NCBI GenBank assembly: GCA_031264075.1
Contig: JAISEO010000058.1
Span: forward strand, 1-35,187
DNA: 35,187 nt
Reading direction: 5' to 3'
Origin: Coriobacteriales bacterium
GTDB taxonomy: Bacteria; Actinomycetota; Coriobacteriia; Coriobacteriales; UBA8131
The translations under genes were made by a program, and so were the position numbers. Within the stretch, counting starts at the first letter, position 1. The number at the start of each line of letters is the position of its first letter. Shown here in pieces: positions 11,539 to 35,187 of this stretch. Under the pieces are notes generated by a model, which searched no databases, was not told the DNA's origin, and saw only the letters and a program-made list of their open reading frames with translations.

Positions 11539-13851
11539 GTGAAGAACCCCAAGACCAGGACCTGGATAATATATGGAATACTCTTAGTGGTATTGCTGTT
11601 CCTCATTGGTTCTCAGCTGAATAACGCAAGCCAGGAGACCACGCAGCCCGATGTTCTCACCACCAGTGAGTTCGTCAACGCTGTGGACGATAACCGGGTA
11701 ACCGAGGTTATCTACAACGCAATAAGCGGCTCGCTCACCGGCTATTACCTCGTTGGCGACGGCGGTGCGGAAGGCGAGCCCCTGCCCTTTACGGCAACCT
11801 ACGTGGGCGAGGATAGTCTCAATGAATTGATGGCCTCTCATTCCGAGATCAACTACAACGTAAGCGTCTCTGACCCTAACTTCTGGCTGACCGTCCTGAG
11901 TTACGGCGTGCCGCTCATCCTGCTTGGATTGCTTGTCTGGTTTATCTACACGCAGTTCAATCAGGTCAACAGGACCCAGATGGGCCTGGGCAAGACCAAG
12001 ACCAAGAAGGCCATCGCCGAACAGCCCAAGACTCGTTTTACCGATGTGGCCGGCATTGACGAGGCCGTGGAGGAACTGCAGGAGATCAAGGACTTCCTCT
12101 CCAGCCCGGCCAGGTTTCAGGAGCTGGGCGCGAAGATTCCGCGGGGCGTGCTCCTGGTTGGCCCTCCGGGAACCGGCAAGACCCTTCTGGCGCGCGCGGT
12201 GGCGGGCGAGGCCGGCGTGCCCTTCTTCTCCATCTCGGGCTCGGATTTTGTGGAGATGTTCGTGGGCGTTGGCGCCTCGCGCGTGCGCGACCTCTTTGAA
12301 AAGGCCAAGGAGAGCGCTCCCTCCATCATCTTCATCGACGAGATAGACGCCGTAGGACGCCAACGTGGTGCCGGCCTGGGAGGCGGGCACGACGAGCGCG
12401 AGCAGACCCTCAACCAACTGCTCGTAGAGATGGATGGCTTTGAGGAGAACTCCTCCGTCATACTGATTGCCGCAACCAACCGCGTGGACATCCTCGATCC
12501 GGCGCTGTTGCGTCCCGGGCGCTTTGACCGTCAGATTGTCGTGGACCGGCCCGACCTCAAGGGCCGGAAGCAGATCCTGACCGTGCATTCCGAGGGTAAG
12601 CCTCTGGCGCACAGCGTTGATCTCGAGGCCATGGCCAAGCTCACCCCGGGCTTTACCGGCGCCGATCTGGCCAACCTCATGAACGAGGCGGCCCTTCTCA
12701 CCGCCCGCAAGAATAAGAAACTCATCACCATGACCGAACTCTCCGAGGCCATGGAGCGCGAGATTGCAGGGCCCGAGCGCAAGGGCAGGATAATCACCGA
12801 CAAGGAGAGAAACATCATCGCCTACCACGAAAGCGGCCATGCCCTCGTGGGGCACATACTCGAAAACTCCGACCCGGTGCACAAGATCTCCATTATCAGC
12901 CGGGGGCAGGCCCTGGGCTACACCCTCTCGCTCCCGAGCGAGGACCGCTTCCTCAACTCCCGCGAGGAGATGTTTGACGATCTCGCGGTGTTTTTGGGCG
13001 GACGGGTGGCCGAGGAGATCTTCTGCAACGACATCACCACCGGCGCCTCCAACGACCTGGAGCGTGCCACCAAGATGGCGCGGCAGATGGTCACCCGTTT
13101 TGGCATGACCGAGGAGCTGGGTACCCAGGTATACGGTGAGGCCAACCATGAAGTGTTCCTGGGCCGTGACTACGGCGCCACGCCGGACTATTCTGATGAG
13201 ACCGCGCGACGTATCGACGAAGAAGTCGCCAAAATAATGCGCAAGGCCCACGACCGTGCCTGGGCCGTGCTGGACGAACGCCGCGAACAGATGAAACTCA
13301 TGGCCACCATACTGCTGGAGCGTGAGACCGTTGAAGATGAGGCGCTTGAGGCCCTGCTCGATAATACCTGGGACGTCTACATAGAGCATGAGGACGAGAT
13401 CCTGGCACACAAGGCCGAGGAACTGCGCAAGCAGGAAGAAGAGGACGAGCGCAAACGACTCGAGACATCGCAGAACGCGGCACTCTCACAGGCAGGGGGA
13501 GCCACGGACGCTTCTCCGCTCTCGGCTGGCGGCGTTGCTCCCGGTAGGCTTGGCCCCAACGGCGAACCTGTCAAGGCAAACGGCAGGCGTTATACCCTCG
13601 AAGATGTCTTTGCCGGGCGCGTGCGGCTCGAGGATCTGATGGGAGAACAGCCTCAGTATCAGGTTCCCGTTGAGCAGCAGCCCGCACAGAATGCGAGTTC
13701 GATTGAGCAAGCGCCGTCGCCGAATCAACACCCTGTTGAGCAGCCAGATAAAAACCCTGCTGAGCAGGGCGCTTCGGTGCAAAACGGGCAGGACGGCGAG
13801 CAGAACCCTCCGGAACACACCGATGAGGACGCTGATGATAGACCGCGTTAA
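11539..13851 (+). CDS. ftsH: ATP-dependent zinc metalloprotease FtsH
   Basis: GTG start; [49 protein letters not shown] region; HESGH zinc motif; Q/P/E-rich C-terminal tail. Confidence 0.97.
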
Positions 13852-14401
13852 GATCGAGCAGGGTGTTCGCCTCATTCTCGAGGGCATCGGTGAAGATCCT
13901 GAAAGGCCGGGCCTCGAGAAGACGCCCGCGCGCGTGGCGAGGATGTACGAGGAGGTGCTTGAGGGGATGCACCAGGATGTTGCCGAGTTTTTTGCCGTGA
14001 CCTTTGAGGAGGGCCACCGCGAGATGGTGCTGGTCAGAGACATTCCCTTCTACAGCATGTGCGAACACCATATGGTGCCCTTCTTCGGGCTGGCACACGT
14101 TGCCTATCTGCCCGGTGCCGCCGGCAAGATCTGCGGCCTCTCGAAGCTGGCGCGCACCGTGGATGTGTTTGCCCGTCGCCTGCAGGTACAGGAACGGCTC
14201 ACAGGCCAGATTGCCAATACGCTGGTTGAGCGCCTGGAGCCCGACGGCGTTATCGTCGTGGTGGAAGCAGAGCATCTCTGCATGAGTATGAGAGGCGTCA
14301 AGAAGCCCGGCGCAAAAACCGTGACCTCGGCAGTACGGGGCGCCTTTGAACTCTCTCAGAAAACCCGCGCCGAGGCGCTGGAACTCATCCTGAGCAAATA
14401 A
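13835..14401 (+). CDS. folE: GTP cyclohydrolase I
   Basis: [45 protein letters not shown]; start at ATG 13835 (alternative 13823), overlapping the ftsH end. Confidence 0.95.
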
Positions 14402-14423: not shown

Positions 14424-15272
14424 ATGACCACAGCGGAACATGTCTGGCACTGCGGCCCCTTTCGTTTTGCGCAACGACGTCCCCTCGTCATGGGCATCCT
14501 CAATATCACCCCGGACTCCTTCAGCGACGGAGGCAGGTATGCGGAGACCGAGGACGCGCTCTGCCATGCCCATACCCTGCTGGAGCAGGGCGCCGACATC
14601 ATCGACATAGGCGGAGAATCCACACGCCCCGGCTCTGAGGAGCTGCCGTATAGCCTGGAGCTTGCGCGCGTGCTCCCCGTGGTACGGCCGCTTGCGCGCG
14701 AGGGTGTCTGCGTGTCGGTAGACTCTCGTCACGCCGAGGTCGTCGAGGCCTGCCTGGCCGAGGGTGCCGCCCTTATCAACGACATCACCGGCTTTACCAA
14801 CCCCGCCATGGTAGAACTCGCAGCACTGAGCAGGGCCGGTTGCGTTGTCATGCACATGCGGGGCAGGCCACAGACGATGCAGGAAAACCCGCAGTATGTT
14901 GACGTGGTTGCCGAGGTGGGCGAGTATCTTCTCACGCAGGCCCGTCTGCTGGCCGATGCGGGGGTAGAGCGAGAGCGCATCTGCCTGGATCCCGGGCCTG
15001 GATTCGGTAAGAACTTCGAGCAGAATCTGGCACTCCTGCAAAACACCGCCCGCCTGGCCAACCTGGGCACTCCCCCGTATCTGCTTATGGCGGCGTGGTC
15101 GCGCAAGAACTTCATCGGCGAGATAACAGGAGAGGCAACAGCCGCAAAACGGGTTGCCGGATCGGTTGCCGCAGCCGTTTTTGCCGCCTCCCACGGCGCC
15201 GGCGTGCTGCGCGTCCACGATGTGGGCCCTACGGTTGAGGCGCTCAAGGTATGGGAAGCCCTGTATGAGTAA
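14424..15272 (+). CDS. folP: Dihydropteroate synthase
   Basis: VMGILNITPDSFSDGG; IIDIGGESTRPGSE; DPGPGFGKNFEQNL. Confidence 0.96.
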   Translation: MTTAEHVWHCGPFRFAQRRPLVMGILNITPDSFSDGGRYAETEDALCHAHTLLEQGADIIDIGGESTRPGSEELPYSLELARVLPVVRPLAREGVCVSVDSRHAEVVEACLAEGAALINDITGFTNPAMVELAALSRAGCVVMHMRGRPQTMQENPQYVDVVAEVGEYLLTQARLLADAGVERERICLDPGPGFGKNFEQNLALLQNTARLANLGTPPYLLMAAWSRKNFIGEITGEATAAKRVAGSVAAAVFAASHGAGVLRVHDVGPTVEALKVWEALYE

Positions 15273-16593
15273 GCGCGAGACAGGTTCTGGAGGAGAAGCA
15301 GGTATTCTGGCTGTGATAGCGCTGGGCTCCAATCTGGGTGACAGTGCCGCTACGCTCGCCGCAGCCGCTCGGCAGATTGCCGCCGCGCCGGAGATTTCGC
15401 TCGTGGCCCTGAGCGGCACCTACACGTCCAGGCCGGCCCATGTAGCTGAACAGCCCCTCTTCAAAAATGCCGTCATGCTCGCTCGGACAACGCTCTCTCC
15501 TCTCGAGCTCCTCCAGCTCCTCCAAAGCACGGAATCGGCATTTGGCCGTGTGCGTGACGGAGAGGGTTCTGTGCCCTATGGGCCCCGCACGCTCGACCTC
15601 GACATCATCGACATCGAAGGCATTGTGTGCCACGGCCCTGATCTCACTTTGCCCCACCCCGAGTCGCTGCGCCGTGCCTTTGTGGTAACGCCACTTTTGG
15701 AGATAAGCCCGCATCACGTGCTGGCCGACAATACAGCAGTAAACACTCGTCACATCGAGTGCGGAGAGATTATCGACGGGCCAGTGCCTGAGAGCAGGCA
15801 GGGAGCAGCTGAGGAAGCGGAAGCGGAGTCTGGCATTGCGGAGTTGGCACACGGGAGCTTTCAAGACCCCTCCACGCCCGTCGCTGGCAGTGCTTGCCGG
15901 GCTGGCAGGCTCTCCGTCTGTGCCACTCCCATCGGTAACCTCGGCGACATCACGCTCAGAGTACTGCAGGCGCTGCAGGACGCCGATGTGGTGTATTGCG
16001 AGGACACGCGGATAACCCGCAGGCTCACCACCCATTACCATATCCAAACCCCGTTGCGCCGCGCCGATGCCCACCGGCTTCCCGCGCTTCTGCCTGCCCT
16101 GCTTGCCGAGCTTGAGGCGGGCAGGCACCTGGCCTATGTGAGTGATGCCGGCATGCCGGGTATTTCGGACCCCGGCGCCCTCCTGGTGGCAAGCGTGCGA
16201 GAGGCCGGCTACAGCGTCGAGGTCCTCCCGGGTGCCTCTGCCCTCACCACTGCGCTGGCCGCAGCCGGTATCAAGGCACGCAGCAGCTATTTTGGCGGCT
16301 TCTTCCCTCGCAAAACCGGGGCGGGCACGCGTCTGCTCACAGAGCTTGCAGAGCTTGAGGACACGACCCTCGTGTTCTATGAATCGGTCTACCGCACCGC
16401 AAAGACCCTGCAACTGATAGCCGAGCTGCTGCCCACACGCAGGGTGGTCATGGCCCGGGAGCTCACCAAGCTCTACGAAGAAGTGCTCACGGGCACCGCG
16501 GGAGATCTGGTCGAACTCCTGGCCCAGCGCAGCGCCGAAGGACGAAAGCTCAAGGGAGAGATAGTGCTTCTCATCGCTCCCGAGTCCGGCTGA
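15265..16593 (+). CDS. folK-rsmI: Fusion ORF: HPPK (FolK) N-terminal domain and 16S rRNA (cytidine1402-2'-O)-methyltransferase (RsmI) C-terminal domain
   Basis: One uninterrupted frame: ALGSNLGD and GPRTLDLDIIDIEG (HPPK), then CATPIGNLGDITLRVLQ, YCEDTR, YVSDAGMPGISDPG, LPGASAL, FFPRK (RsmI). Confidence 0.9.
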   Translation: MSKRETGSGGEAGILAVIALGSNLGDSAATLAAAARQIAAAPEISLVALSGTYTSRPAHVAEQPLFKNAVMLARTTLSPLELLQLLQSTESAFGRVRDGEGSVPYGPRTLDLDIIDIEGIVCHGPDLTLPHPESLRRAFVVTPLLEISPHHVLADNTAVNTRHIECGEIIDGPVPESRQGAAEEAEAESGIAELAHGSFQDPSTPVAGSACRAGRLSVCATPIGNLGDITLRVLQALQDADVVYCEDTRITRRLTTHYHIQTPLRRADAHRLPALLPALLAELEAGRHLAYVSDAGMPGISDPGALLVASVREAGYSVEVLPGASALTTALAAAGIKARSSYFGGFFPRKTGAGTRLLTELAELEDTTLVFYESVYRTAKTLQLIAELLPTRRVVMARELTKLYEEVLTGTAGDLVELLAQRSAEGRKLKGEIVLLIAPESG

Positions 16594-20922: not shown

Positions 20923-23900
20923 CTATACCTCGGGATCAGGGCCCTGCGCGTCTGCGTCGCGCTTTCTGGAGCGTATCCGGTAGGCGAGGACTGCCAACAC
21001 CGAAGCGATGGCAAGCACAGCCACGCCAAAGGTCACCGACAACAGGTAGGGTGCCGTCTCGCTTGTTGCCGTGAGTTCGGTGGTCTCGGCGGTCTCACTG
21101 GCCTCTGCTTCGGCTCCTGGTCTCGTGTCTGTCCTGGTAACAGGCCGTGTCTCCCGTGTGGCACTGTCTGTCGTGTCGCCCTGGGTATTTTGTGAACCCT
21201 CCAACGGGGTGTAGGAGAGCGAGGCCGGAGACGACCCGCCGTCCGCAGCAGGTGCTGGAGCAGGGACAGCTTGCGCGGGCCGGTCGACCATAAAGGCGGT
21301 TGAACCCGTACCCGCCTTGAAGTCATCGACAAAGCGCAGCTCTATCAGATGGCTGCCATTTGCGAGCGTGTCCACAAAGGCAGTGTCCAGGCCTACGACG
21401 GCGCTCCCCTGGGTGAGGGTGCCGACCTCGGTGCCGTCAAGCAGGAGCTGACGGCTCGCTCTGCCGCTGGGCGTGCTACTGACGGCACCGAGGGCAAAGA
21501 TCCTGCCGTTGAGGCTCACGCTGCTAACGCTGCCGAAGTCGCCTTTGAAGCTCACCTCGACACTCTGCCCATACGCCGTGATGGGTGCTCCCACTGTGGA
21601 GCTGAGCACGGGATGACTGTGGTCAAGCGCGGCTGTCCGCGCATCGAGCTCGGCGAGCAGGGCCTCGACCTCCGCTTGTGTGAGCGGTTGGCCTCCGGCC
21701 TTGGCTGCGGCTTCAAAGGCAGCGTGTACCTTCGCCATCGTGGCATCAAGCGCATCCACTGCCTGTTCGTCGTAATTCTCCCGTGCAAGGGTAACCGAGG
21801 GAAACGCCTCCTGCTCCGCGCTGCTAAGGGCCGAGTCGAGCGCAGTCAGGCTCGTCTGGGCCGCGCCCACCCTCACCGATATCATCAGGGGCAGGGCATC
21901 GTATGAATTGGCGTAGAGGGCCGGGTCTGGCGTAAAGGTCGCGGCGGCCACAAAGAGGCCGTTCCTCGCGTCGTTGCCCAGCACGTCCGTCTCAAAGCCC
22001 ACTGCTCCCGGCACAAGAGCGGAAGCGTTGGGAGCGTCCCAGCTGAGCGTGCCGGAAAGCGTCGCCTCGCCTTTGAGAGCACTGCCACCAAAGACGTAGC
22101 CGCTTGTTTCCAGGCCGAGGCTGGCAAGACTGCCATCTCCGTAGGCAAGGATCGGCAGGCTGCCTTCCGTCACGAGCACGGGAGTTGCGGGGGCAACCAC
22201 GACGGTAAAGATGGAAGAAGCAGGAGCCTCACTGCGCGTGTCGCCGCTCAGTGGATAGGTCAATCCGAGCGGGTTGTAGTGTACGGTAAAGCTGTGGGTG
22301 CCGGTCTTGAGCGCTGCGAGATAGTTGCCGTCAAGGCTTATGCGGTCGCCAACCACGGTGTACGACATTGCCAGGGCAGGCGCGTCCGCATCCAGTCCCT
22401 CGCCGGCAGACACGCTCCCCGGAGGCGAGATGCCGTCCCACACGGCATCGTAGCCCGTGCGCTCCAAATCTGCCACGGTGTTGCCGTTCAGGGTGAGGAA
22501 GACCTCGGCGTCCGTGCTGCCAAAGCGCGTGCTGTTGACCAGTTCCGTATCGGCTGCGCTGTCCTCGTAGACGACGACGCCGTCCCTGAGGATGCCGGAG
22601 CTGTTGCCCGCGTAGTCCCTGGCCTCCACGTAGAGCGCAAAGGCGGTGCCTGCCTCCACGGAGAGAGGCTCTGCCGCGTCGTAGTCCTGCCAGAGCGAGG
22701 CGAGCGCGGTGGCGTCCAGAGCTGTGTTACCCGGAGCAGCGTCGAGGTAGAAACGCAGCGTCTCGATGTCCGAAGACACGGCGGTTCCGTCAGAGCCTGT
22801 GTCGGTGACCTCAAGTTCGATCTCCACACCATCCCTGAAAAAGAGGGCGGGGCTTGTCGAGCCGAGGAAGTCGCTTGCCGTGTTGGCGTTGTAGCCGACC
22901 TGTACCACCGGGGCCGTCTTGTCGATGCTAAAGGTGAAGGAGGCAACCGTCGATATCTCGTGCTGCGTGATGGCGTCGTTGTCCTCGTCGGCCTCCAGGT
23001 CCGTACCCGTGCGACGCACATAGAAGGGCACGACATTGGCATCGACCGGTGCTGAGCCGAGGATGAGGGTGTTCTGCCAGGTGCTCGTGTCCAGGTTCCC
23101 CGCGCTCACGGCAAAACCCGTTGCCGCCGTCACCACCACGTCGGTGTTTGTCCAGCCGTTGTTAAGGGTCGTAGCCGTGTAATGCTCCTCAGCAAGCGCG
23201 GTAAAGCCCGGGAGGATGGTAGCAACGTCGCTGAGTGTAGTCGCTGGCTGGGCGAGCGTGTAGTTGGCCCTCACGTCGCGCGAGGAGCCGGCCGCAAGGG
23301 CGTAGCTGCCCGTTCTCGCTACGCTGGACGTGCCCACCTCAGCACTCGCAAACGCAAAGTCCACATCCGAGCTGTCCAGCGCAATGCCGTCCAAATCCGG
23401 ATTGACAACACCCGCGAGTGCGGCCTCGCCCATAACGGCAAGGTCCGTCCTGCCATCGTAGTGTTTGCTTGCAAAGGCAAGGCCAGCCATAGTGACGGTG
23501 AGCGGCTTCGGCGCCACCACAAGCGTTATCCACGCCTCGGCCGAATCGTTGTAGTTGGCATCGCCAAGCCGTTTGGCGTAGATCGTCGTGCTCCCCTGGC
23601 CGATGATATTGATGCGGCCACTCAACTCCCCGATGGTGGCAACGTCCGGATCCTGGCTTCTCCATGCGTAGGTGCCGGGCTCGCTGCCCGAGCCGCCCGT
23701 TGCCGTAAGCTCAAAGGCTTGGTCGCCGTAGGTAGCGGACACGGTGGCAGGGCCGGAGATGAAGACGGCTGCCTGCGCTGCCCTGGTGATGTTATAGGAG
23801 ACCGAAGAACTCTCGGAGCTTTCATAATCGGTGTCGCCTTCGTAGGCGGCGCGGAGCCTGTGGTCACCACCGCTGAGGGTGAGCGTGAGACTTGCCTCGC

Positions 23901-26900
23901 CCGAACCGTCAACTGTCTCGGTGCCCAGAGAGAGCTCGGGCGTGAGTGCGTCGTTGTCATGGTCATCCCAAAACTCAACCTTGCCACGGGGCATAAAGCC
24001 CATCTCGCCGGCAACGGTGGCCGTGAGGGTGACGTTGTTCTCGGCGTAGGAGCTGCTTGTGAGCGGGTTACAGGCAAGTGTCACGGACGAGGTATTCCTG
24101 GCTATCGCAACCGTGAGCGTCGTGGGCCGTGGGTCATCGGTGCTTTGCGAGGCCGCATACGGCTTGCCGAGCGGGTTATACGAGACGGTGAAGCTGTGCG
24201 TGCCCGCGTCAAGCGTCTGCAGGTAGGCTGCCGTAAGCGTAATTGTGTCAGCGGGGCTCCCTGCGCTGTAGTCGGTGCTTTCAAGCGCAAACTCGGAGCC
24301 TCCGGCTGTGCGCACGATGTCGGCCACCGTGTTGCCGTGCATCGCCACAGCCGCGACAGCGTCTGTGCCTGAGGCCTTCGTGAAGGTGGTGGTGGTGGTG
24401 GTGGCACTCTGTGTATAGCGCACGAAGCCTTCCGTGCCAACGACGCGCACATTGCCTGTGTTGTCGGTGAGACGTGCGTAGACAAAGTAGCTGCCGTCTA
24501 TGGTGATGTTCGGCGCGCTGCCCGCGGTCCAGCCCGTGGCGGCCTTAGCATCTGCCTCGCTCCCAAACGGTGTCGTCCGCACGAGGTATTCCGTTGCCTG
24601 CATACCCGAGCCAGCCCCGTCCGCGCCACTCAAGGCAAGCGACACGTCGCCCGCCCAGAACTTGGCAAGGCTATCCGAGAGAGGCAGACCCGCATACGCG
24701 ATGCCACGCGCGGTGATGCTGCCGGTAGGCGGCGTGGCGTCCTTGTAGACGGTGAGGGTATGCGCCGCCTCGGCGTTCTCCGCTTCGTCCTCCGCCCAGT
24801 AGCTGATGGTGTGGCGGCCATCGGGAAGGGCTGTGAGAAGTACCTCTGCCGTAGCGCCTGCAACGATGGTATCCACCGCGGCAGCGTCTACTCGGTAGTG
24901 GATCTCCCTGACCGTACCGAGGCCCTCACCGAGCAGGTTGCCCCCTGTAGCCTTCGTCACGTCATTATCGGTGGCGGTGAGGGTCACCTTGTCCCGCATC
25001 CAGCCTTCGTTGGCGAGGTCTGCGGTCGTTACGGGTGCGACGCCGTCGAGGTAATTGGCAGTGAGGATCACAGGCGCTGGTGGCATGGTGAAGGTGGTGG
25101 TACTCGCGGTTTCGTCCTCAAGCTCGACTGTCACCGCGTCGTCCCCGTTCTGCGTCCAGTAACCGAACCTGTAGCCCTCAGCGGAATTACCGGCGGTGAG
25201 GGTGACGGGTTTTGCCGCCTCATAGCAGCCGTCCGGTGTGCCGTAGTCGCTGGTTGCCACAGGGACAGCCGAGCCGCTGTCATCGGTGGTGAGGATGAGG
25301 CGGTAGGTGGGTGTGATACCCGTGACATCGAAGGTCGCCTGCGCCACCGCAAGGTCGCTCAATACTATGGCAAGCCTGTAGGTGCCGTTAATCCGTGTCC
25401 AGTCCGCCTTCAAAGAGAAGATGAGCTGGTCATCAAGGAAGGTCGGATCGGCGTCCGTAAAATTGAAGATGACTCCTCCTCCGCTCTTGACCGTGTAGGC
25501 CCCCTCACCAAGTGCTACAAAGCCCCTGTCGTCTCCGGGGATATCCAGATACACATCCCTTATCGATACTTCCGGGCTTCCCGAGCCAAGATCTGCGCTC
25601 GTCGGAAAGTCAAGCGCAGGTGCCGTGTAGGCTCCGCCTGCATCGACGGGATGCAGCTTTTGGAAGGCGTGCATGTCCGTGAGGTAGTTCACGCCACCAC
25701 CATTGAGGATGTAGCGGGAGTCCAAAAGACCGACAGCCTTCGTGATGGTGCCGCTCGCCTCTACTGCCGCCACACCAAAGCCGGGAGTTCCCGGTAGGGA
25801 GGGTATCGATACCATAACGTCTGTCACATCGTCTGTGAACTCGTCTCCCAGACTGAAGAACACGCGCCAGGTCCAGGTGTATTTGACCGTGCCTGCAAAG
25901 TACGAGCCCTCGTCTATGGGGAGGATCATCGTTATCTTCAGTCCCTCTATCGGGTCACCGTCGCTGTCCGTTATCCTAACCGGCCCGTCGTAGGGGTAGC
26001 TTATATCCAGATTGTCGTTCTCATCTGTCGGATAGAAGTAGATGCTGTCGGGATTGCCGTAGGTTGCTATGATGGGGTAGTAGTTCTTGTCTGCGCCTTC
26101 GCCTGCAGGCTTTGCCAGCGTAAACTGGAGTGTGGAGGTGGAATAGCCCGGAAGCGCGGCAAATACCTCAGCCTCGGCTATGGCGCGGGGCACGGTGATG
26201 GGAGTGGTGGCAGCGATATAGTTACGTCCCTGCTCACTGTTTTGCTTTTGGTAGGTGTCGAGCTTGCCGTTCAAGTCCATGCGTACCTCTACAGAGGCAC
26301 TGGCCTCTGTCTTTACCGCAGATGAGGCAGGGGCGATGGGGATGACATAGACATTGTTATGGGTGCCTTCTGCGATAGCTTGAGCGTTTTTGAAGTCGTG
26401 TGCGCTCGGATCCTTTACGACCGCGGTGTTAACCACCACCTCGTTCCAGCTGAGACCTCCCACGATGGGGTATTTGAAGGTGAGCGTCATGGTGTCAGAA
26501 ACCCCGTCTTCGTCCGTATCGCTTACGGCTACACCCTCTGTGTCTGCAAACTCTATCTTCGGGTGAACCGTAAAGGTGACGTTTTGTTCTTCATCGGTGG
26601 CAACTGCACTATACATTATCTTGATCTTCGCCTGATGGATGCCAGGCTCAAGACCTGCCACAGGCTGTATCGTCCAGACGTTACCTGAGCCTTGGAGCTT
26701 AAACCAGTCTTCGGCGTCTTCTGCGCTCTCCCCTGTCCACTCCACCTTGTCCACGGTGGCGCCGGCTGCGACATGGACGGTCTGGGCTGTAAGGGGATCT
26801 GTCGTATCTCCCGTGCTCGGCAGCGTGTAGCCTTGGAGCTGCGCATCGAAGCGTACCTCGCCGAAGTCATGGACGTAGAAAGCTGTGGCAGGTGAGGAGA

Positions 26901-29900
26901 ACGAGCCCTGTGTCTCGTCATCTGGCGCTGCGACTGCCTTCACACGCAAGGTGTAGCGCCCTCCTTGAAGACCTGTGAGTATGACGGAGGTGTCTGTCTT
27001 GTTTGCGTCTTCGACATTTTGCCACTCCCCATAGCCAGCCTCACCTGTTATGCCGACGCGGTACTCATAGGCGGTATCCGCTGTAGCGTTCGTGACGGTG
27101 ACGATGCTCGGATCTGAGGCATTGCCCGGGTTATGTACCGTAAGCTCTGGTTGCGCGGGGCGACGCGGGATAAAGAGAACCGTTGCCGCGGAGTTGACGG
27201 TGTTTGTTCCGCCTTTGAGTATCACGTCGATTCCCTCTGTCGTGACACCATCTGATACCTCATCGATACCCGCACCGAGCCAAGTATCGTTTATGGGGTA
27301 GTGCCATACATCGTTCAAGTCTTTGTAAGATGGGTTGTTCGGGTCGGTAAGGTCGGTGCCGATGAACCTTTCAACGTGTCCGATTCCCTCTGTGTTGTTA
27401 CCGAAGATATACGTCTTTCCTTCTGCAAGTCCGGCTACGGTGCGGTTTACATAGTCTATCCAGGCCTCCGGGGTGTCTTCCGGTACGGGTTTATAGAAGG
27501 TGACTGCCATCCCTACAGAGTCGTCCTTTATGCGGTAGTCGTGGATGGTTCGGTCCTGTGCCTGGTCTCCTGTCCCCTCTCGCACCGTGAGCTTCCAGCT
27601 CTTTATGGTGAGGGCGTCTTCAAGCGTGGTGCCATTGGCAATGGGCAAAGCCGAGACGGGGATGAACCACGTGTCCGCTGAGGTGCGGGCACTACCTTCC
27701 GGGTTTTTGGGGTAGGGATAGGCGGTGTCTGTGCGGGTGACGCCGTCATGCAGGGCATAGGCGTCATTGTCGAGGTAAAAGCCCGCGACCTCCCTGTCAA
27801 AGGTGACGAGTATGCCGTCTGTTGCCTCTGTGCCGTCCACGCCGTTTTGCTGGACTGCGGAGGTGACTTCTACCGTAAGGGGGGCAAGTACCCTCACGGC
27901 TGTGTAGGCGGCCTTGTTTCCCGCCTCATCTTCTACCACTATGTTAAACCAGTAGGAGGTGTCGGGCTCAAGACCGGTGACGTTATAGGTGGTGATGCCC
28001 ACTGTATCGTCTTCGTTTAAGAGCGTGCCGTGTTCCATGGCCGACTCCACACCTTCCATGTCGTCTATGGCAGTGGCGTGCTGGTAGACGTAGTAGGTAA
28101 GCGCTGAATCTTCTGTAAAGGTGTCGCTTGCCGCCGTCCAGGAGAGTGTTGTGTTCCAAGATGGTGTCTCTGCACCTGTCTCGATCGGCTCGGATGCGGT
28201 TATGGTGCTCACCGCAGGCTCGACACTGCCTCCCACAACGGGCGCGGTGCCGTCCCTGCTCACCGTCAGCGTTAGCTCGACGGGAGCGGAGGCTACATAG
28301 TCATCGTCGCCGGCCTTTACCGCGGAGATAAGGGTGGTGCCGTCGGTCTTATACCCGACAAAGCTGGCCGTTGTCTCGTTGCCTGTGGTGGGTGCAACCG
28401 TCGCAACGTCTGTTTCGCTGCTTGTCCAGGTGTAGGCACCGGAGCCCGAGCCGCCGGAGGCGGTGAGGGCGAGGCTGCCGCTCTCACGCGTCCTGGTCAC
28501 AGAGCCGGGGGCTGTGGAGCTGGCCGCAACGCCGCTTCCCGTCACCTGCACCGCATTCTGCTGCGCCTTGCTCACCACGATGGTAAAGCTTGTCGTCTCG
28601 GGGGTATCGTTGCGCGCGTCAGCAGAAGAGTAGGCCACACCCAGCGGGTTGTAGCTCACCGTAAAGCTGTGCGTACCCACCTGAAGGGTCTTGAGGTAGT
28701 CCCCGTCCAGGAGTATCCGGTTACCATTTACGCTGTAGGAGGCCCCTAACACCGGCGCGCCCTCATCCTGTCCCTCGTCTGCCAGCACGCTCTCAGGCGC
28801 GCCGCCCGATGCGCTGTAGCCCGTGCGCTCCACAGCCTTTATGGTGTTGCCGTTGAGAACGACGTAGGCTGTAGCATCAGCATCTGCGAAGCGGGTGAGA
28901 GAGAGGTCCTGGGTGTTGATGGTGCTGTCGGAGTAAACGATGACGCCGTCGGTTAAGATGCCCGAGCTGTTGCCGGCGTAGTCGATGGCCTCAACGTAGA
29001 GGGCGAACCTGGCATGCTCTGCTACAGCGGGCCTGGCAAGCTCAGAGTAGGTCTGCCACCTGCCTTCAAGGGCTGCCGCGGTGAGGGCGGTGCTGCCTGG
29101 ATTGCGGTCGAGATAGTAGCGCAGCGTCTCCACGCCCGAAGAGGGGGCAACGGCATCGGTAGCCGCAAGCTCAATGTCCACGGTCTCCTTGAAGAAGAGC
29201 CCAAAGCTGATGCTGTTGAGGAAGGCGGTGAGGGCATTCTCGTTGTACCTGACCTTCACCTCAGGGGCCGTCCGCTCAATGCCGTAGTCAAGCGTAGCGA
29301 GCGTCGAGATCTCGTTTTGTGCTATGTCACCGGTGCCTGTGGCCGCGCGGCGTAGGTAGAAGGTTTTGGATGCCTCCTGCACAGCAGCGGTATCGAGGGT
29401 GAGGCTGTCCAGCCAGCTGCTGGCGTGCAGGTTTTCCGCACTCACCTTATAACCTGCGGCCGCGGTGATGACCACGTCCTCATTCGTCCAGCCCTGGTTC
29501 AGGGGGGTTGCCGTGTAGTGTACACCGGCCTCCGGCGTAAAGCCCGACGAGATGGTAGCGAGATTCGCAATGCTGTCAGAAGGCTGGGTGAGCGTGTAAT
29601 TTGTGGCCGCGCCTCCCGTGAGCGCATAGCTTCCCGTCCGTTCGACGGTGTTCTCGCCCACAGACTCGCTCGCAAACACATAGCTCACACCCGAGGCATT
29701 CAGGCCCACGTTATCCGTACCCACAACCCCAACGAGCGCAGGCGCACCCGTCATGCTCACGGTGGTGAGACCGTCGTAGTGCTTGCTCGCGAAGCTGAGC
29801 CCACTCATGTCCACAGTGAGGGACCTGGCAGTGACAGTAAGCGGAACGGCCACACCGCGCACGGTCTCGTTGTTGCCCGTGTCCGTGGGCGTAAAGGTGG

Positions 29901-32900
29901 CAAGCGGGGTGCGCGTGCCGACGTTGCCCACAATTGCCAGCGGGTTGTCCCAGCTCCACAGGCCGGGAACGGGGCTGGTCTCGGAGCCCGAGTTGGTGAA
30001 GCTGATAAGGCTCACAGAACTCAGGAGGTCTCCGTAGGTGGCGGAAAGCCCCGTAGGTGCCACCACGTCCGGCGCGGCCTTGGCAATGGTGATGGTGAGG
30101 CTTGCCGAGGCGATACCCGTCTCCCAATCGGTGTCGTCCAACCGGTGCGCCACTACGGCAATCTGGCCCGCGCCGTACACGGTAACGGTTCCGTCAGGAG
30201 ACACCGTTGCTACGGCATCTTTGCCCATCGTGCGCTCAAACACCAACGCTCCCGTGCCGCTGCCGCCCGAGGCGACAAGCGTAAAGGGCTCATCCGCCGC
30301 GGCCTTGGCTCCGGGATCCTCAATAACCACGGGAGCGGTCTGCACGCGTTTGTTCACGCGTACCACCGCGGTGTTGGAGTTTCTTGTAGCGCTCTGGGTG
30401 CCATTGACGGAAGGGTTGGTGTTGGTGACGACGCAGTAGTAGTAAAACGTGCCGACGCTTGCGCGCGGAACCTCATAGACAGCGCTCGTAGCGCCGTTCA
30501 TAAGCGTGCTGCCGACCGTGCCGGTGGGCGCGGTGGCCCGATACCACTGATACGACAGGATGCCGCCGGACGCAGCGTCAGAGGCAACAGCGGCTACTCT
30601 GAGGCGTATTCCGCCCTCAGGGTCGGCCATGGCCGTGTAGGCGTCTCCCCCGGCGGGATGTTGCGTGATATTGGGCACGGCGGCGTTGACGGTGGGGTCG
30701 ATTATCACCGTGAGCGTGGGAACCGCTGCCTGCGCGTCAAGTACATGGTTGACGGGCGCTGTCTCCAGCGTGGCGGTAAAGGCGTAGCTCCCCGCCGCGG
30801 ACGGGTTATAACTGCCTGCCAGGTTCCAGGCACTCACGGGCCAGGCCACCGTGCCGTTGGTGCAGTTTGCGGTGACCGTGGGGTATTGGGCAAGGAGCGT
30901 GGCAGCCACATCAGCCGGCGCAAAGCCCGGGGCCGGAGAGCCGGCATGGCCGCCCGGCACCACCACGGGCACGAAGCCCCTGGCCTTGTTATCGGTAACG
31001 GTAAAGGCCACTGCAAAGGATTCGCTGAGGCCGTGCTCCGCGGAGGACACCTGCACCTGGGCCGTATAGCTGCCGGAGGTGAGGCCTGCCACCGGCTGCA
31101 CGGTAAAGGGAGCCGAGACAGCATTCTGCTCCGCCACCGAGGCAATCTGCACGCTCACGCCCGAGGCACCCCCGCTCGCCAGCACAAAGGAGCCCGCGCC
31201 CGGGCCGGCGAGTGAGGCCGTCAGCTCGCCCGTGCGGTTGCTGCCGATATTGGTAACCGTCACCGGTTGTGGAGCCACACCGCCCGCGCCCACACCGTAG
31301 CCGTACTCGGCATCGGCAAAGGAAAGCGTGCCGCCCACGTTGGGCAGAATGCCGTAGGGCAGGTCGTTGACTATGACCGTGACCTGAGGCACGAGGTTGC
31401 TTGTGTTGGAGACATTCCTGTCCAGGCTGCCAAGCGTGCCTCTGAAGGTATAGATGCCGTTGACGTTGGGGTTAAAGGAAGTACCCAGGTTGACCCACGC
31501 GATAATCGGCAGCGAGATGGTGGTACCCGTGTCAAGGTTGGCCGTAACGGCCTTGCTGCCGCCAAAGGCAGGGTCTGCCAGCGTGCCATTGAGCAGGATG
31601 TCCGCAATCTCCGCCTCCTCGTCACGATCTGCGGCAAGCTCACTTGCCGTGCCCACCGTCCAGGGCGCTATCTGGGCAAAGCCCATGATGTTGGCTGTGC
31701 CTACGGTAAAGCTGAGGGTATAACTTGCGGAGAAGGGGTCGGTGTGCCCGCCCTGCCCGCTTTGGCTGCCCGCCACGGTGAGCATGGCCTCGTAGACACC
31801 CGCGTCAAGGCCTGCGACCGGACGTACAGAAATATCCGTGTTGCTGCCGGCAGGGGCGATGTTTTCGAGAGAGGCAGCGGAGAGCGCAAAGGCTGCCGCA
31901 CCGTTGCCCGAGAGCGTAACGCTCAGCGTGCCCGTAGGCTGGTTACCCGTGTTGGACACGACAACGGTGTGGGCGAGTCCCGCGGCGGCGGCAGACGTGT
32001 AGCCCCACTTCTTGGAATCAAAACTGAAGGTGGCCGCGCTGGCGGTGTCAAGGCCCAGGCCCCAGGTGGGCGCAACGGTGCCGGGCGCAATGGTAAGGTT
32101 CTGCGTAACGCTCGCAAAACGGCCCTGTGCGCCGGCCTCGGCCTTGTAACGCAGGCGGTAGTTGTTGCCCGCGGCAAGCCCGGTGATGGCTCCCGCCTCG
32201 CTGTCATAACCCGGAAGCGAGGCGATGTCGGCAACCCAGCTCCCTCCGCCGTTATTTGAGAAGTCCATGGTGGCCGCGCTCACGCCGAGGATCGCGCCGT
32301 CGGCAAAGCCCACAAAGCTCAAAGCCCGTGTGGTTGAGGCGGGAGCAGCAGGCCGCGCCTTGATGACGAGGGTGGCCGCGTCACTTTGGAGCGCGCTGTT
32401 GGTGTTGTGCTTGATAAGGGAGAGCGGTTCCGGGCCGTCGTCGGTTGCTCCGCGTCCAAACCACGCGGCGTCGATGTTGAGGACACCCGTGTTGTTCGTG
32501 TTGACCTGGTTGCCGTCCACCAGATAGACCGCGCTGTGTGCGAGACCGGTGATCTGCTCGGCAACATAGTCCACGACGGGCACCGGCGTGCGCTCGACAA
32601 CGGTGAGATGCACGGTGGCCTGGGCCGTATGGGTGAAGTCCTTGCCCTCCGGATGATAGGTGACGCTCACGACCGCCGTGTAATCGCCCACGGCAAGCCC
32701 GTCTTTGGGACGCACGGTAAAGCTGAGGTTGTCCTCCCCTGCTTCAAGGGTTGTTTCTGTGGCCGCGGTGCCAGGAGGTTTGGCAAGCTCAAAGGCGGCC
32801 GTGTTGGAGATGCTTATCTCCGCGTTGGTAAACGTAGCGGGGATGTTGCCTGAGGCGGCAATCCTGAGCGGGAGGGGGCTTACGGAGCTGCCCTGTTGAA

Positions 32901-35187
32901 GCCTGCCGCTGCTGCCGTTGCCAAAGACCGGTGCGGTGAGGTTAAGGCTCACGGCATCGGTGTCCACAATGACGGTGGAGGCCTCGCTCGCAAAGGATCC
33001 TCCGACTGTGTTGATGGCCTTATAGCGTACGTGGTAGGTTCCGGCAACTACGGCCTGGTAGTCTCCGTTTTCAACATCGGTCAGCACCGTGCAGTCCGTA
33101 TAGCTCGTCGTTCCTTCGGCGGCAAACTCCATCGCAGAAGTAACGCCGTATATCCTGTTGTCGTAGCCCGAGAGCCCGTCAGGAGCTGCGGGACGTGCCG
33201 GCACCACTACCTCGGTACGGGCACTGTCCGCGAGCGTCGTGCCATTGCCAGCGGTGACGACGTACACCGTGGTGCCGTGGAGGTCATAGCCGCCCTCGCC
33301 GGAGGTGGCAAGCGGTATCAGCTTGTCGCTCACAGTACGGGCCGTACCGTTTACGAGGTAGGTGCCCGCACCAGGCAGGGTAAGGGAGTCTGCGGCAAAA
33401 TCGACGCCTACCAACGGTGTGATGGCACGTGCTATGGTGGAGAAGGTGAAGCTCTGCGCTGCCTCCATTGCCACAGCGTCCGTACTCACGAAGCCATCCA
33501 CGGTTACCTCATAGGACGCGCCGTACTCGATGCCCGACACCGGCAGGGTCAGCGCGTTGCCCGCGGCGTTCCAACGGGAGTCATCGGTAACAATCGCGCC
33601 ACCGGTGAGCGAGGGTTCACCGGCTCCTCCGCCTGCGGTTTTCTCAATAGCAACCGTGCCGGGCAGTGTCGTGTCTATGCCCTGTGAGAAGTTGAGGATG
33701 AGGGACTGTGCGGCAGAGGGATAGACGTTGGTCTGGGCGTCTTTGGGGTTCGTGAGTGAGGCCACCGGCCTGGGCTGGGCTGCCCAGCTGTAAGACGAGG
33801 CCCCCGAGATGTTGCCGCCCGTGTCGATGGCACGAGCCTGCACCAGCGTGTTTGTGTCGGGAACGCCATCAGGAACGAAGGGCAGGAGTGTCTGAGCCGT
33901 CAGGTCAAACTCGCCTGCGCCTGGGCCTTCCTCCGTAAACACGTAGTTCTTCCAGCCGTCATTGACCGTGCCGTCTACCCACGTGCTGCCGTTGTCGAGC
34001 GAAGCGCGGTACTGATACTTGGCCACAGCCGTGTCGTCGGTGGAGTAGCCCACGGTAAAGTTCGTGTTCTTCTGGGTGACCACCGGCACAGTAGGAGCCG
34101 TGAAGTCCTCGATGATGGTTGTGTTATCGTCTTCCTTCAGGGTTTTGCCATCTTCGGTAAACTCCAGGCCTGCAGGTGCATAGTTGTTCAGTACATAGAA
34201 CTGTTTAAGGTCGTACTCCTGCGCAGCTTGGCCAGAGGCCGCTGTAAAGCCGATATAATATTCGTTGCCGATAATGGACTCGATGTCCACGTTCGTTCTC
34301 GAAAGCGTAGGCGTTTGCGGTTTGACAGGTGTAGAGCTGATATAGAGATTGAGGTACCGCTCCTTGGAGTTGTAGTCCACCCACGAGTAACAGTGTACGT
34401 TCTTTATATATCCCGAACTGTTGGCTACAAAATTGGGCGATTTATAGGCCTCATCGACAGCGCCCAGATAGCGTGTGCTGATGCCGTCTCCGTCGTTGTT
34501 TTTTGCTATTTGTGAAAACGCCCCGCCTTTCTCCCCATAGCCCGCAAACGGAACCCTCTGTCCGCCGTCGTTGTCGTAGGTATCGACCTTGAAAGCGACC
34601 GACCTTGTGAAAGCGGTACCTCCATAGCCAAGCGATCCGGAACCCCCGGTAATGCCGTTCGTGTCAGCGGCGATGATGAAGGACCAACCGTCCGCGGTTC
34701 TACTACGGCCAGCGACATCCCCGTTTTCTCCCATCCAGATATCGAACATGGCCGAGAAACCCGTTTCGGAGTATATGCGGCGGGAGAGGAAGGCCGAGCC
34801 GTATTTCCAAGGGGAGGATGCACCCGGAGTTTTGGAAATGAGCCTGATGTAACCCGACGCGTCCTGCGTCGGCTCAACGACCAGTGAGTCGTTCCCGGTT
34901 ATCCGCATAGTCTTCATGCCGTCCGCCGAGGCGTTGCCCGAGTTGAACGACGGCCCGATGAAGTAGGCGGGGAGGACAGTCTGGCTGGTGCCCGGCTCAC
35001 CGGACTGCTCGGGCGGCGGCTCCTCCCCAAAGACCTGTCCGGCAAACACCGGCGGGATGATGAGCGTGAGGGTCAGGACGCAGGCGAGCAGCGTCCGCGC
35101 GGTCTTCCGCAGCTGAGCCCTCTTCCAGGGCGCGCGCCGGGTAGCACTTACTGTGCCCTTGCGCGTGGAGCAGGAGGGACGGGGCTG
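20923..35187 (-). CDS. Giant modular cell-surface protein (adhesin-like), 5' end truncated by the window edge
   Basis: ORF of 4708 aa from 35049, frame open to 35187; lectin-like DGWSFIIAAD...GGSGSLGYGG...SVAFKVDTYDN; repeated Ig-like, YDG/MBG-like, CBM_X2-like, FN3 and FIVAR-like modules; C-terminal TM YLLSVTFGVAVLAIASVLAVLAYRIRSRKR. Confidence 0.9.
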   Translation of the reverse strand, partial: QPRPSCSTRKGTVSATRRAPWKRAQLRKTARTLLACVLTLTLIIPPVFAGQVFGEEPPPEQSGEPGTSQTVLPAYFIGPSFNSGNASADGMKTMRITGNDSLVVEPTQDASGYIRLISKTPGASSPWKYGSAFLSRRIYSETGFSAMFDIWMGENGDVAGRSRTADGWSFIIAADTNGITGGSGSLGYGGTAFTRSVAFKVDTYDNDGGQRVPFAGYGEKGGAFSQIAKNNDGDGISTRYLGAVDEAYKSPNFVANSSGYIKNVHCYSWVDYNSKERYLNLYISSTPVKPQTPTLSRTNVDIESIIGNEYYIGFTAASGQAAQEYDLKQFYVLNNYAPAGLEFTEDGKTLKEDDNTTIIEDFTAPTVPVVTQKNTNFTVGYSTDDTAVAKYQYRASLDNGSTWVDGTVNDGWKNYVFTEEGPGAGEFDLTAQTLLPFVPDGVPDTNTLVQARAIDTGGNISGASSYSWAAQPRPVASLTNPKDAQTNVYPSAAQSLILNFSQGIDTTLPGTVAIEKTAGGGAGEPSLTGGAIVTDDSRWNAAGNALTLPVSGIEYGASYEVTVDGFVSTDAVAMEAAQSFTFSTIARAITPLVGVDFAADSLTLPGAGTYLVNGTARTVSDKLIPLATSGEGGYDLHGTTVYVVTAGNGTTLADSARTEVVVPARPAAPDGLSGYDNRIYGVTSAMEFAAEGTTSYTDCTVLTDVENGDYQAVVAGTYHVRYKAINTVGGSFASEASTVIVDTDAVSLNLTAPVFGNGSSGRLQQGSSVSPLPLRIAASGNIPATFTNAEISISNTAAFELAKPPGTAATETTLEAGEDNLSFTVRPKDGLAVGDYTAVVSVTYHPEGKDFTHTAQATVHLTVVERTPVPVVDYVAEQITGLAHSAVYLVDGNQVNTNNTGVLNIDAAWFGRGATDDGPEPLSLIKHNTNSALQSDAATLVIKARPAAPASTTRALSFVGFADGAILGVSAATMDFSNNGGGSWVADIASLPGYDSEAGAITGLAAGNNYRLRYKAEAGAQGRFASVTQNLTIAPGTVAPTWGLGLDTASAATFSFDSKKWGYTSAAAAGLAHTVVVSNTGNQPTGTLSVTLSGNGAAAFALSAASLENIAPAGSNTDISVRPVAGLDAGVYEAMLTVAGSQSGQGGHTDPFSASYTLSFTVGTANIMGFAQIAPWTVGTASELAADRDEEAEIADILLNGTLADPAFGGSKAVTANLDTGTTISLPIIAWVNLGTSFNPNVNGIYTFRGTLGSLDRNVSNTSNLVPQVTVIVNDLPYGILPNVGGTLSFADAEYGYGVGAGGVAPQPVTVTNIGSNRTGELTASLAGPGAGSFVLASGGASGVSVQIASVAEQNAVSAPFTVQPVAGLTSGSYTAQVQVSSAEHGLSESFAVAFTVTDNKARGFVPVVVPGGHAGSPAPGFAPADVAATLLAQYPTVTANCTNGTVAWPVSAWNLAGSYNPSAAGSYAFTATLETAPVNHVLDAQAAVPTLTVIIDPTVNAAVPNITQHPAGGDAYTAMADPEGGIRLRVAAVASDAASGGILSYQWYRATAPTGTVGSTLMNGATSAVYEVPRASVGTFYYYCVVTNTNPSVNGTQSATRNSNTAVVRVNKRVQTAPVVIEDPGAKAAADEPFTLVASGGSGTGALVFERTMGKDAVATVSPDGTVTVYGAGQIAVVAHRLDDTDWETGIASASLTITIAKAAPDVVAPTGLSATYGDLLSSVSLISFTNSGSETSPVPGLWSWDNPLAIVGNVGTRTPLATFTPTDTGNNETVRGVAVPLTVTARSLTVDMSGLSFASKHYDGLTTVSMTGAPALVGVVGTDNVGLNASGVSYVFASESVGENTVERTGSYALTGGAATNYTLTQPSDSIANLATISSGFTPEAGVHYTATPLNQGWTNEDVVITAAAGYKVSAENLHASSWLDSLTLDTAAVQEASKTFYLRRAATGTGDIAQNEISTLATLDYGIERTAPEVKVRYNENALTAFLNSISFGLFFKETVDIELAATDAVAPSSGVETLRYYLDRNPGSTALTAAALEGRWQTYSELARPAVAEHARFALYVEAIDYAGNSSGILTDGVIVYSDSTINTQDLSLTRFADADATAYVVLNGNTIKAVERTGYSASGGAPESVLADEGQDEGAPVLGASYSVNGNRILLDGDYLKTLQVGTHSFTVSYNPLGVAYSSADARNDTPETTSFTIVVSKAQQNAVQVTGSGVAASSTAPGSVTRTRESGSLALTASGGSGSGAYTWTSSETDVATVAPTTGNETTASFVGYKTDGTTLISAVKAGDDDYVASAPVELTLTVSRDGTAPVVGGSVEPAVSTITASEPIETGAETPSWNTTLSWTAASDTFTEDSALTYYVYQHATAIDDMEGVESAMEHGTLLNEDDTVGITTYNVTGLEPDTSYWFNIVVEDEAGNKAAYTAVRVLAPLTVEVTSAVQQNGVDGTEATDGILVTFDREVAGFYLDNDAYALHDGVTRTDTAYPYPKNPEGSARTSADTWFIPVSALPIANGTTLEDALTIKSWKLTVREGTGDQAQDRTIHDYRIKDDSVGMAVTFYKPVPEDTPEAWIDYVNRTVAGLAEGKTYIFGNNTEGIGHVERFIGTDLTDPNNPSYKDLNDVWHYPINDTWLGAGIDEVSDGVTTEGIDVILKGGTNTVNSAATVLFIPRRPAQPELTVHNPGNASDPSIVTVTNATADTAYEYRVGITGEAGYGEWQNVEDANKTDTSVILTGLQGGRYTLRVKAVAAPDDETQGSFSSPATAFYVHDFGEVRFDAQLQGYTLPSTGDTTDPLTAQTVHVAAGATVDKVEWTGESAEDAEDWFKLQGSGNVWTIQPVAGLEPGIHQAKIKIMYSAVATDEEQNVTFTVHPKIEFADTEGVAVSDTDEDGVSDTMTLTFKYPIVGGLSWNEVVVNTAVVKDPSAHDFKNAQAIAEGTHNNVYVIPIAPASSAVKTEASASVEVRMDLNGKLDTYQKQNSEQGRNYIAATTPITVPRAIAEAEVFAALPGYSTSTLQFTLAKPAGEGADKNYYPIIATYGNPDSIYFYPTDENDNLDISYPYDGPVRITDSDGDPIEGLKITMILPIDEGSYFAGTVKYTWTWRVFFSLGDEFTDDVTDVMVSIPSLPGTPGFGVAAVEASGTITKAVGLLDSRYILNGGGVNYLTDMHAFQKLHPVDAGGAYTAPALDFPTSADLGSGSPEVSIRDVYLDIPGDDRGFVALGEGAYTVKSGGGVIFNFTDADPTFLDDQLIFSLKADWTRINGTYRLAIVLSDLAVAQATFDVTGITPTYRLILTTDDSGSAVPVATSDYGTPDGCYEAAKPVTLTAGNSAEGYRFGYWTQNGDDAVTVELEDETASTTTFTMPPAPVILTANYLDGVAPVTTADLANEGWMRDKVTLTATDNDVTKATGGNLLGEGLGTVREIHYRVDAAAVDTIVAGATAEVLLTALPDGRHTISYWAEDEAENAEAAHTLTVYKDATPPTGSITARGIAYAGLPLSDSLAKFWAGDVSLALSGADGAGSGMQATEYLVRTTPFGSEADAKAATGWTAGSAPNITIDGSYFVYARLTDNTGNVRVVGTEGFVRYTQSATTTTTTFTKASGTDAVAAVAMHGNTVADIVRTAGGSEFALESTDYSAGSPADTITLTAAYLQTLDAGTHSFTVSYNPLGKPYAASQSTDDPRPTTLTVAIARNTSSVTLACNPLTSSSYAENNVTLTATVAGEMGFMPRGKVEFWDDHDNDALTPELSLGTETVDGSGEASLTLTLSGGDHRLRAAYEGDTDYESSESSSVSYNITRAAQAAVFISGPATVSATYGDQAFELTATGGSGSEPGTYAWRSQDPDVATIGELSGRINIIGQGSTTIYAKRLGDANYNDSAEAWITLVVAPKPLTVTMAGLAFASKHYDGRTDLAVMGEAALAGVVNPDLDGIALDSSDVDFAFASAEVGTSSVARTGSYALAAGSSRDVRANYTLAQPATTLSDVATILPGFTALAEEHYTATTLNNGWTNTDVVVTAATGFAVSAGNLDTSTWQNTLILGSAPVDANVVPFYVRRTGTDLEADEDNDAITQHEISTVASFTFSIDKTAPVVQVGYNANTASDFLGSTSPALFFRDGVEIELEVTDTGSDGTAVSSDIETLRFYLDAAPGNTALDATALASLWQDYDAAEPLSVEAGTAFALYVEARDYAGNSSGILRDGVVVYEDSAADTELVNSTRFGSTDAEVFLTLNGNTVADLERTGYDAVWDGISPPGSVSAGEGLDADAPALAMSYTVVGDRISLDGNYLAALKTGTHSFTVHYNPLGLTYPLSGDTRSEAPASSIFTVVVAPATPVLVTEGSLPILAYGDGSLASLGLETSGYVFGGSALKGEATLSGTLSWDAPNASALVPGAVGFETDVLGNDARNGLFVAAATFTPDPALYANSYDALPLMISVRVGAAQTSLTALDSALSSAEQEAFPSVTLARENYDEQAVDALDATMAKVHAAFEAAAKAGGQPLTQAEVEALLAELDARTAALDHSHPVLSSTVGAPITAYGQSVEVSFKGDFGSVSSVSLNGRIFALGAVSSTPSGRASRQLLLDGTEVGTLTQGSAVVGLDTAFVDTLANGSHLIELRFVDDFKAGTGSTAFMVDRPAQAVPAPAPAADGGSSPASLSYTPLEGSQNTQGDTTDSATRETRPVTRTDTRPGAEAEASETAETTELTATSETAPYLLSVTFGVAVLAIASVLAVLAYRIRSRKRDADAQGPDPEV
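35165..35187. repeat. Partial copy of the GGGACGGGGCTG repeat family at the window edge
   Basis: GCAGGAGGGACGGGGCTG matches the arm of the 19614-19744 element. Confidence 0.6.

Follow-up and report, generated by a model that had tools for sequence, protein, structure and literature searches.

The 35,187-nucleotide stretch of DNA analysed here (the window) contains a single open frame in which a complete FolK (HPPK) domain is followed by a complete domain of RsmI, the 16S rRNA C1402 2'-O-methyltransferase. As the initial annotation had proposed, this single-polypeptide fusion is real, and it is conserved: the same in-frame arrangement recurs in 12 genera of the window's family within the Coriobacteriales, f1, where it is present in 20 of the 29 genomes with a readable junction, out of 33 genomes in total (G000, the host of the window, and G001, G002, G003, G005, G006, G008, G010, G013, G014, G016, G019, G020, G021, G022, G023, G024, G026, G029 and G030). 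The frame is open from its ATG to its TGA, and both domains exceed the curated cut-offs of their families. In particular, the full protein scored 112.1 bits against the folK profile TIGR01498 (cut-off 54.1), spanning positions 1–128 of 128, and 197.6 bits against TIGR00096 (equivalog cut-off 167.9), which gave 199 bits for the match at 15910–16584. In a profile search of the genome PF01288 matched with an E value of 1.1e-32; on the protein it gave 110 bits for the N-terminal part, and PF00590 gave 114 bits for the C-terminal part. The host genome is a 105-contig draft of 2.18 Mb and 90% complete; profile searches of it detected one HPPK and one RsmI, both in the fusion locus, and no further folK or rsmI.

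The residues expected of each enzyme are largely kept. An alignment to solved HPPKs places the Mg-binding aspartate pair and the motifs GPRTLDLD (as GPRTLDLDII) and LPHP in the N-terminal part. Asp100 and Ala124, which take part in AdoMet binding by E. coli RsmI (PMC5053481), have D301 and A325 of the fusion protein as their counterparts under a deduced numbering of the solved chain; D301 is invariant in 30 sequences, and Met296 stands in place of Thr95, a main-chain contact in E. coli RsmI. The C-terminal tail of RsmI is missing from the window protein, the match to TIGR00096 ending at position 220–222 of 275, and a tail with the look of a helix-turn-helix is found in the fused relatives G008, G014, G020 and G026. 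AdoMet binding is retained by an E. coli RsmI construct, G12–P258, that stops short of the native C terminus (PMC5053481). An AlphaFold2 model of the fusion, built from 30 sequences of which only two include HPPK (mean pLDDT 75, pTM 0.49), has folded HPPK-like and RsmI-like domains and a linker with pLDDT below 50 (residues 152–207) that is predicted to be disordered except for one low-confidence helix. Foldseek searches with this model returned RsmI (9pzg, 5hw4) and HPPK (5etq, 1cbk, 5etl) as separate matches, the RsmI match with an rmsd of 13 Å, and the relative placement of the two RsmI subdomains in the model is not usable.

Table 1 Features of the folK-rsmI locus and of related loci
Feature	Coordinates	Strand	Remarks
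ftsH	11539..13851	+	Next to the folate genes, on their upstream side
folE open frame (GTP cyclohydrolase I)	13670..14401	+	Family match
folP (dihydropteroate synthase)	14424..15272	+	TAA overlaps the folK ATG
folK-rsmI fusion ORF	15265..16593	+	ATG 15265 to TGA 16591-16593, 442 aa
HPPK (FolK) domain	15313..15711	+	PF01288 positions 1-116 of 116
Linker	15775..15894	+	About 40 codons, without Met; end of conserved HPPK tail to first RsmI strand
RsmI domain (16S rRNA C1402 2'-O-methyltransferase)	15910..16584	+	TIGR00096 positions 2-222 of 275
FolP-FolK-RsmI frame, G016	L009:346-2529	+	Apparent trifunctional protein
FolP-FolK-RsmI frame, G005	L011:1441-3738	-	Apparent trifunctional protein
FolP-FolK-RsmI frame, G023	L026:1036-3150	-	Apparent trifunctional protein
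FolP-FolK single-frame loci outside f1	L029, L136-L151, L153, L025		

The linker had been described as about 55 residues without Met; the absence of Met holds, and the length falls between the estimate in Table 1 and the roughly 68 residues that separate the Pfam borders. Between species the linker is fast-evolving and rich in indels, and it is always in frame. In the comparison of the window with its closest relative, G003 (82% identical), it has a dN of 0.74 and one 17-codon indel that keeps the frame, and dN/dS is about 0.20 for HPPK and about 0.12 for RsmI, values which show both domains to be under purifying selection. Fused linkers range from 5 to 86 codons and contain no stop among 603 in-frame codons, compared with 13 of 583 and 31 of 583 in the two shifted frames; this count is biased on its own, because loci were classed as fused when the frame was open, and the weight lies with how many genera are fused and how much the linkers vary in length. 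(The single TAG recorded for the fused frame of G002 is its terminal stop.) The probability that the fusion is an artefact of misassembly, of an overlooked stop or frameshift, or of gene decay is negligible: the host genome is a 105-contig draft and the genomes of the set look like fragmented assemblies, but 19 other genomes, each assembled independently, show this architecture with differing linkers, and both domains are under purifying selection and present as sole copies. Those 19 genomes and the purifying selection rule out sequencing error, misassembly, frameshift or pseudogene, and the 20 independent assemblies together exclude a missed frameshift or stop in the linker, near positions 15780–15905.

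The fused frame is best read as encoding one polypeptide. It is very improbable that two proteins arise from it, with RsmI also made alone by initiation at GTG 15784 or TTG 15844, as had been suggested, or by cleavage in the linker. These two codons are the only in-frame alternative starts in the window linker, which the predicted structure indicates is probably flexible, but neither is preceded by a convincing ribosome-binding site, and the linkers of five fused relatives (G003, G005, G023, G029 and G030) hold no ATG, GTG or TTG at all, which makes internal initiation unlikely. Cleavage in the linker after translation is possible. Several unfused relatives, for example G012 and G009, carry an ATG at the junction.

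In the remaining nine readable f1 genomes, from six genera, folK and rsmI are separate genes lying side by side (G009, G011, G012, G015, G017, G027, G028, G031 and G032), and their arrangement shows how the fusion probably arose. No genus of f1 mixes the fused and unfused states; the unfused genera g8 and g9 lie next to fused genera on trees. In G005, G016 and G023, which belong to genera g2 and g13, FolP is in the same frame as FolK as well, giving FolP-FolK-RsmI frames of 705–766 residues in which all three families score above their cut-offs. Otherwise, FolP of f1 is separate, adjoining folK in ten genera and lying on a different contig in others. In G019 (L166) folP and folK lie about 1.4 kb apart, compared with 90 bases in its congener G029, a difference that looks like an insertion between the two genes.

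Outside f1 the partner of FolK is a different one. A single FolP-FolK frame, in DHPS-HPPK order and of about 430–690 residues, occurs in 18 of the 19 genomes examined from families f2–f10, the exception being G046 (L152); in the f4 genomes G035 and G052 an unfused rsmI comes immediately after it, and then metG. FolK-RsmI was not found outside f1 among the matches listed for a phylum sample of 398 genomes or for an order sample of 301 genomes. Long RsmI frames (at least 400 residues) were considered as candidates, and those retrieved from outside f1 contain no HPPK. Of 80 named RsmI loci in a scan of the collection, only L047, which belongs to the f1 genome G013, carries HPPK. Because other Coriobacteriales families carry FolP-FolK instead, FolK has switched partners in f1, exchanging FolP for RsmI. 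On trees made from RpoB, HPPK, RsmI and FolP, the FolK-RsmI state requires two changes within f1, or three if the outgroups are taken as unfused. The deep branches are weakly supported, so its history may comprise one gain and later fissions, or two or three gains. The triple fusion could have been the ancestral state of f1, but it is nested on these trees, so that a secondary re-fusion is more economical, with the same weakness of the deep branches.

The fusion lies in a folate gene cluster. The folP stop and the folK start overlap by 8 bases (ATGAGTAA), as expected for translational coupling, and no promoter-like site was found between folP and the fusion, which fits co-transcription with folP without proving it. 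Because the first 55 or so codons of the folE open frame precede the family match, the true start of folE probably lies downstream of the start of the frame. Elsewhere in the window, on the minus strand at 20923–35049, a 4708-residue open frame with CBM_X2, Big_3_5, YDG and legume-lectin-like domains is probably a giant surface or adhesin-type protein.

Folate genes elsewhere in these genomes have features of their own. FolE, FolP and FolK are present in f1, and FolB (dihydroneopterin aldolase) is absent from all 33 genomes; among 61 Coriobacteriales genomes FolB occurs only in f10, which has no PTPS-family gene. The PTPS motif of G000, CRELHGH, is the QueD signature CxxxHGH and not the folate-type ExxHGH (signatures as in PMC5041015). 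An RNase H-like domain (RVT_3, PF13456) is joined in frame to the N-terminus of the PTPS/QueD-like protein at L226:27-791 (G000:C81), and since PTPS frames of at least 300 residues are common across f1, this RVT_3-PTPS fusion may be conserved there too.

Taken together, the comparisons make it highly probable that the fusion is a bifunctional enzyme, one polypeptide with two otherwise independent activities. The N-terminal HPPK would transfer pyrophosphate from ATP to 6-hydroxymethyl-7,8-dihydropterin, and the C-terminal RsmI would 2'-O-methylate C1402 of 16S rRNA on the 30S subunit; the RsmI part is presumably dimeric, with the HPPK domains tethered by the flexible linker. We infer both activities, the dimerisation and the absence of cross-talk. 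Such a protein probably originated through loss of the stop and start between the adjacent, co-oriented folK and rsmI of a folE-folP-folK-rsmI cluster, and would supply the two enzymes in a constant ratio from a single translation start, coupled to folP; a selective benefit from this stoichiometry and common translational control is plausible. Most likely, then, the fusion is a joining of two neighbouring housekeeping genes and not a new pathway.

The initial annotation had spoken of linking folate synthesis to 16S rRNA methylation; the physical link stands, and we found no sign of a functional one. Folate is required to regenerate methionine and SAM, and functional coupling could take the form of HPPK sensing pterin/ATP or folate status and modulating rRNA methylation, or of RsmI bringing HPPK to the ribosome. 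In favour of coupling, the fusion is ancient and persists in 12 genera, and FolK is common to all three architectures, FolP-FolK, FolK-RsmI and FolP-FolK-RsmI. Against it, neither the length nor the sequence of the linker is conserved, the enzymes use unrelated substrates (pterin and ATP for one, 30S and SAM for the other), close relatives are unfused, as in g8 and g9, and the model has no confident interface at its pTM of 0.49. We therefore regard coupling as very unlikely, and likewise a regulatory role for the fusion in which methylation of C1402, a ribosomal P-site nucleotide, is tuned by pterin or folate status, or in which HPPK stays anchored to the 30S subunit. Independent parts are the most economical explanation, because the substrates are unrelated, the linker is unconserved and close relatives use separate genes; the adjacent unfused genes of those relatives explain the fusion, so that coupling is not needed.

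The earlier remark that a FolK-RsmI fusion is unfamiliar agrees with the papers searched: none of them bears on a folK-rsmI fusion, on HPPK with RsmI or on YraL with folK, and for both FolK-RsmI and the trifunctional-looking FolP-FolK-RsmI we found no description there. FolK exchanges partners within one bacterial order, and the unfused, double and triple states coexist in one family. For annotation, the single locus needs two functions, and a pipeline that assigns one name would lose folK or rsmI. The fusion also warns against taking every gene fusion as proof of shared function.

Compared with the solved RsmI structures (5hw4, 9pzg), the window protein shares the full NTD and CTD, the AdoMet-binding residues and identity of the 40% class, and differs by its N-terminal HPPK extension and by the missing C-terminal tail of E. 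coli RsmI. The FolP-FolK proteins of f2–f10 have the same order and setting as the f1 genes, with folE upstream and FolK as the common element; in those families RsmI is separate, whereas in f1 RsmI is fused and FolP is separate except in g2 and g13. Among known fusions, FolK-FolP (HPPK-DHPS) and FolB-FolK(-FolP) likewise join FolK to the product of a neighbouring gene; bifunctional HPPK/DHPS enzymes were among our PDB matches (3mcm, 4pzv, 2bmb), and eukaryotic folate genes such as folB-folK-folP are labile, with repeated fission and fusion (PMC4224340). However, the partners in those fusions catalyse neighbouring steps of one pathway, whereas the window frame contains neither FolP nor FolB, folP being a separate, overlapping gene, and FolK is joined to a C-terminal rRNA methyltransferase.
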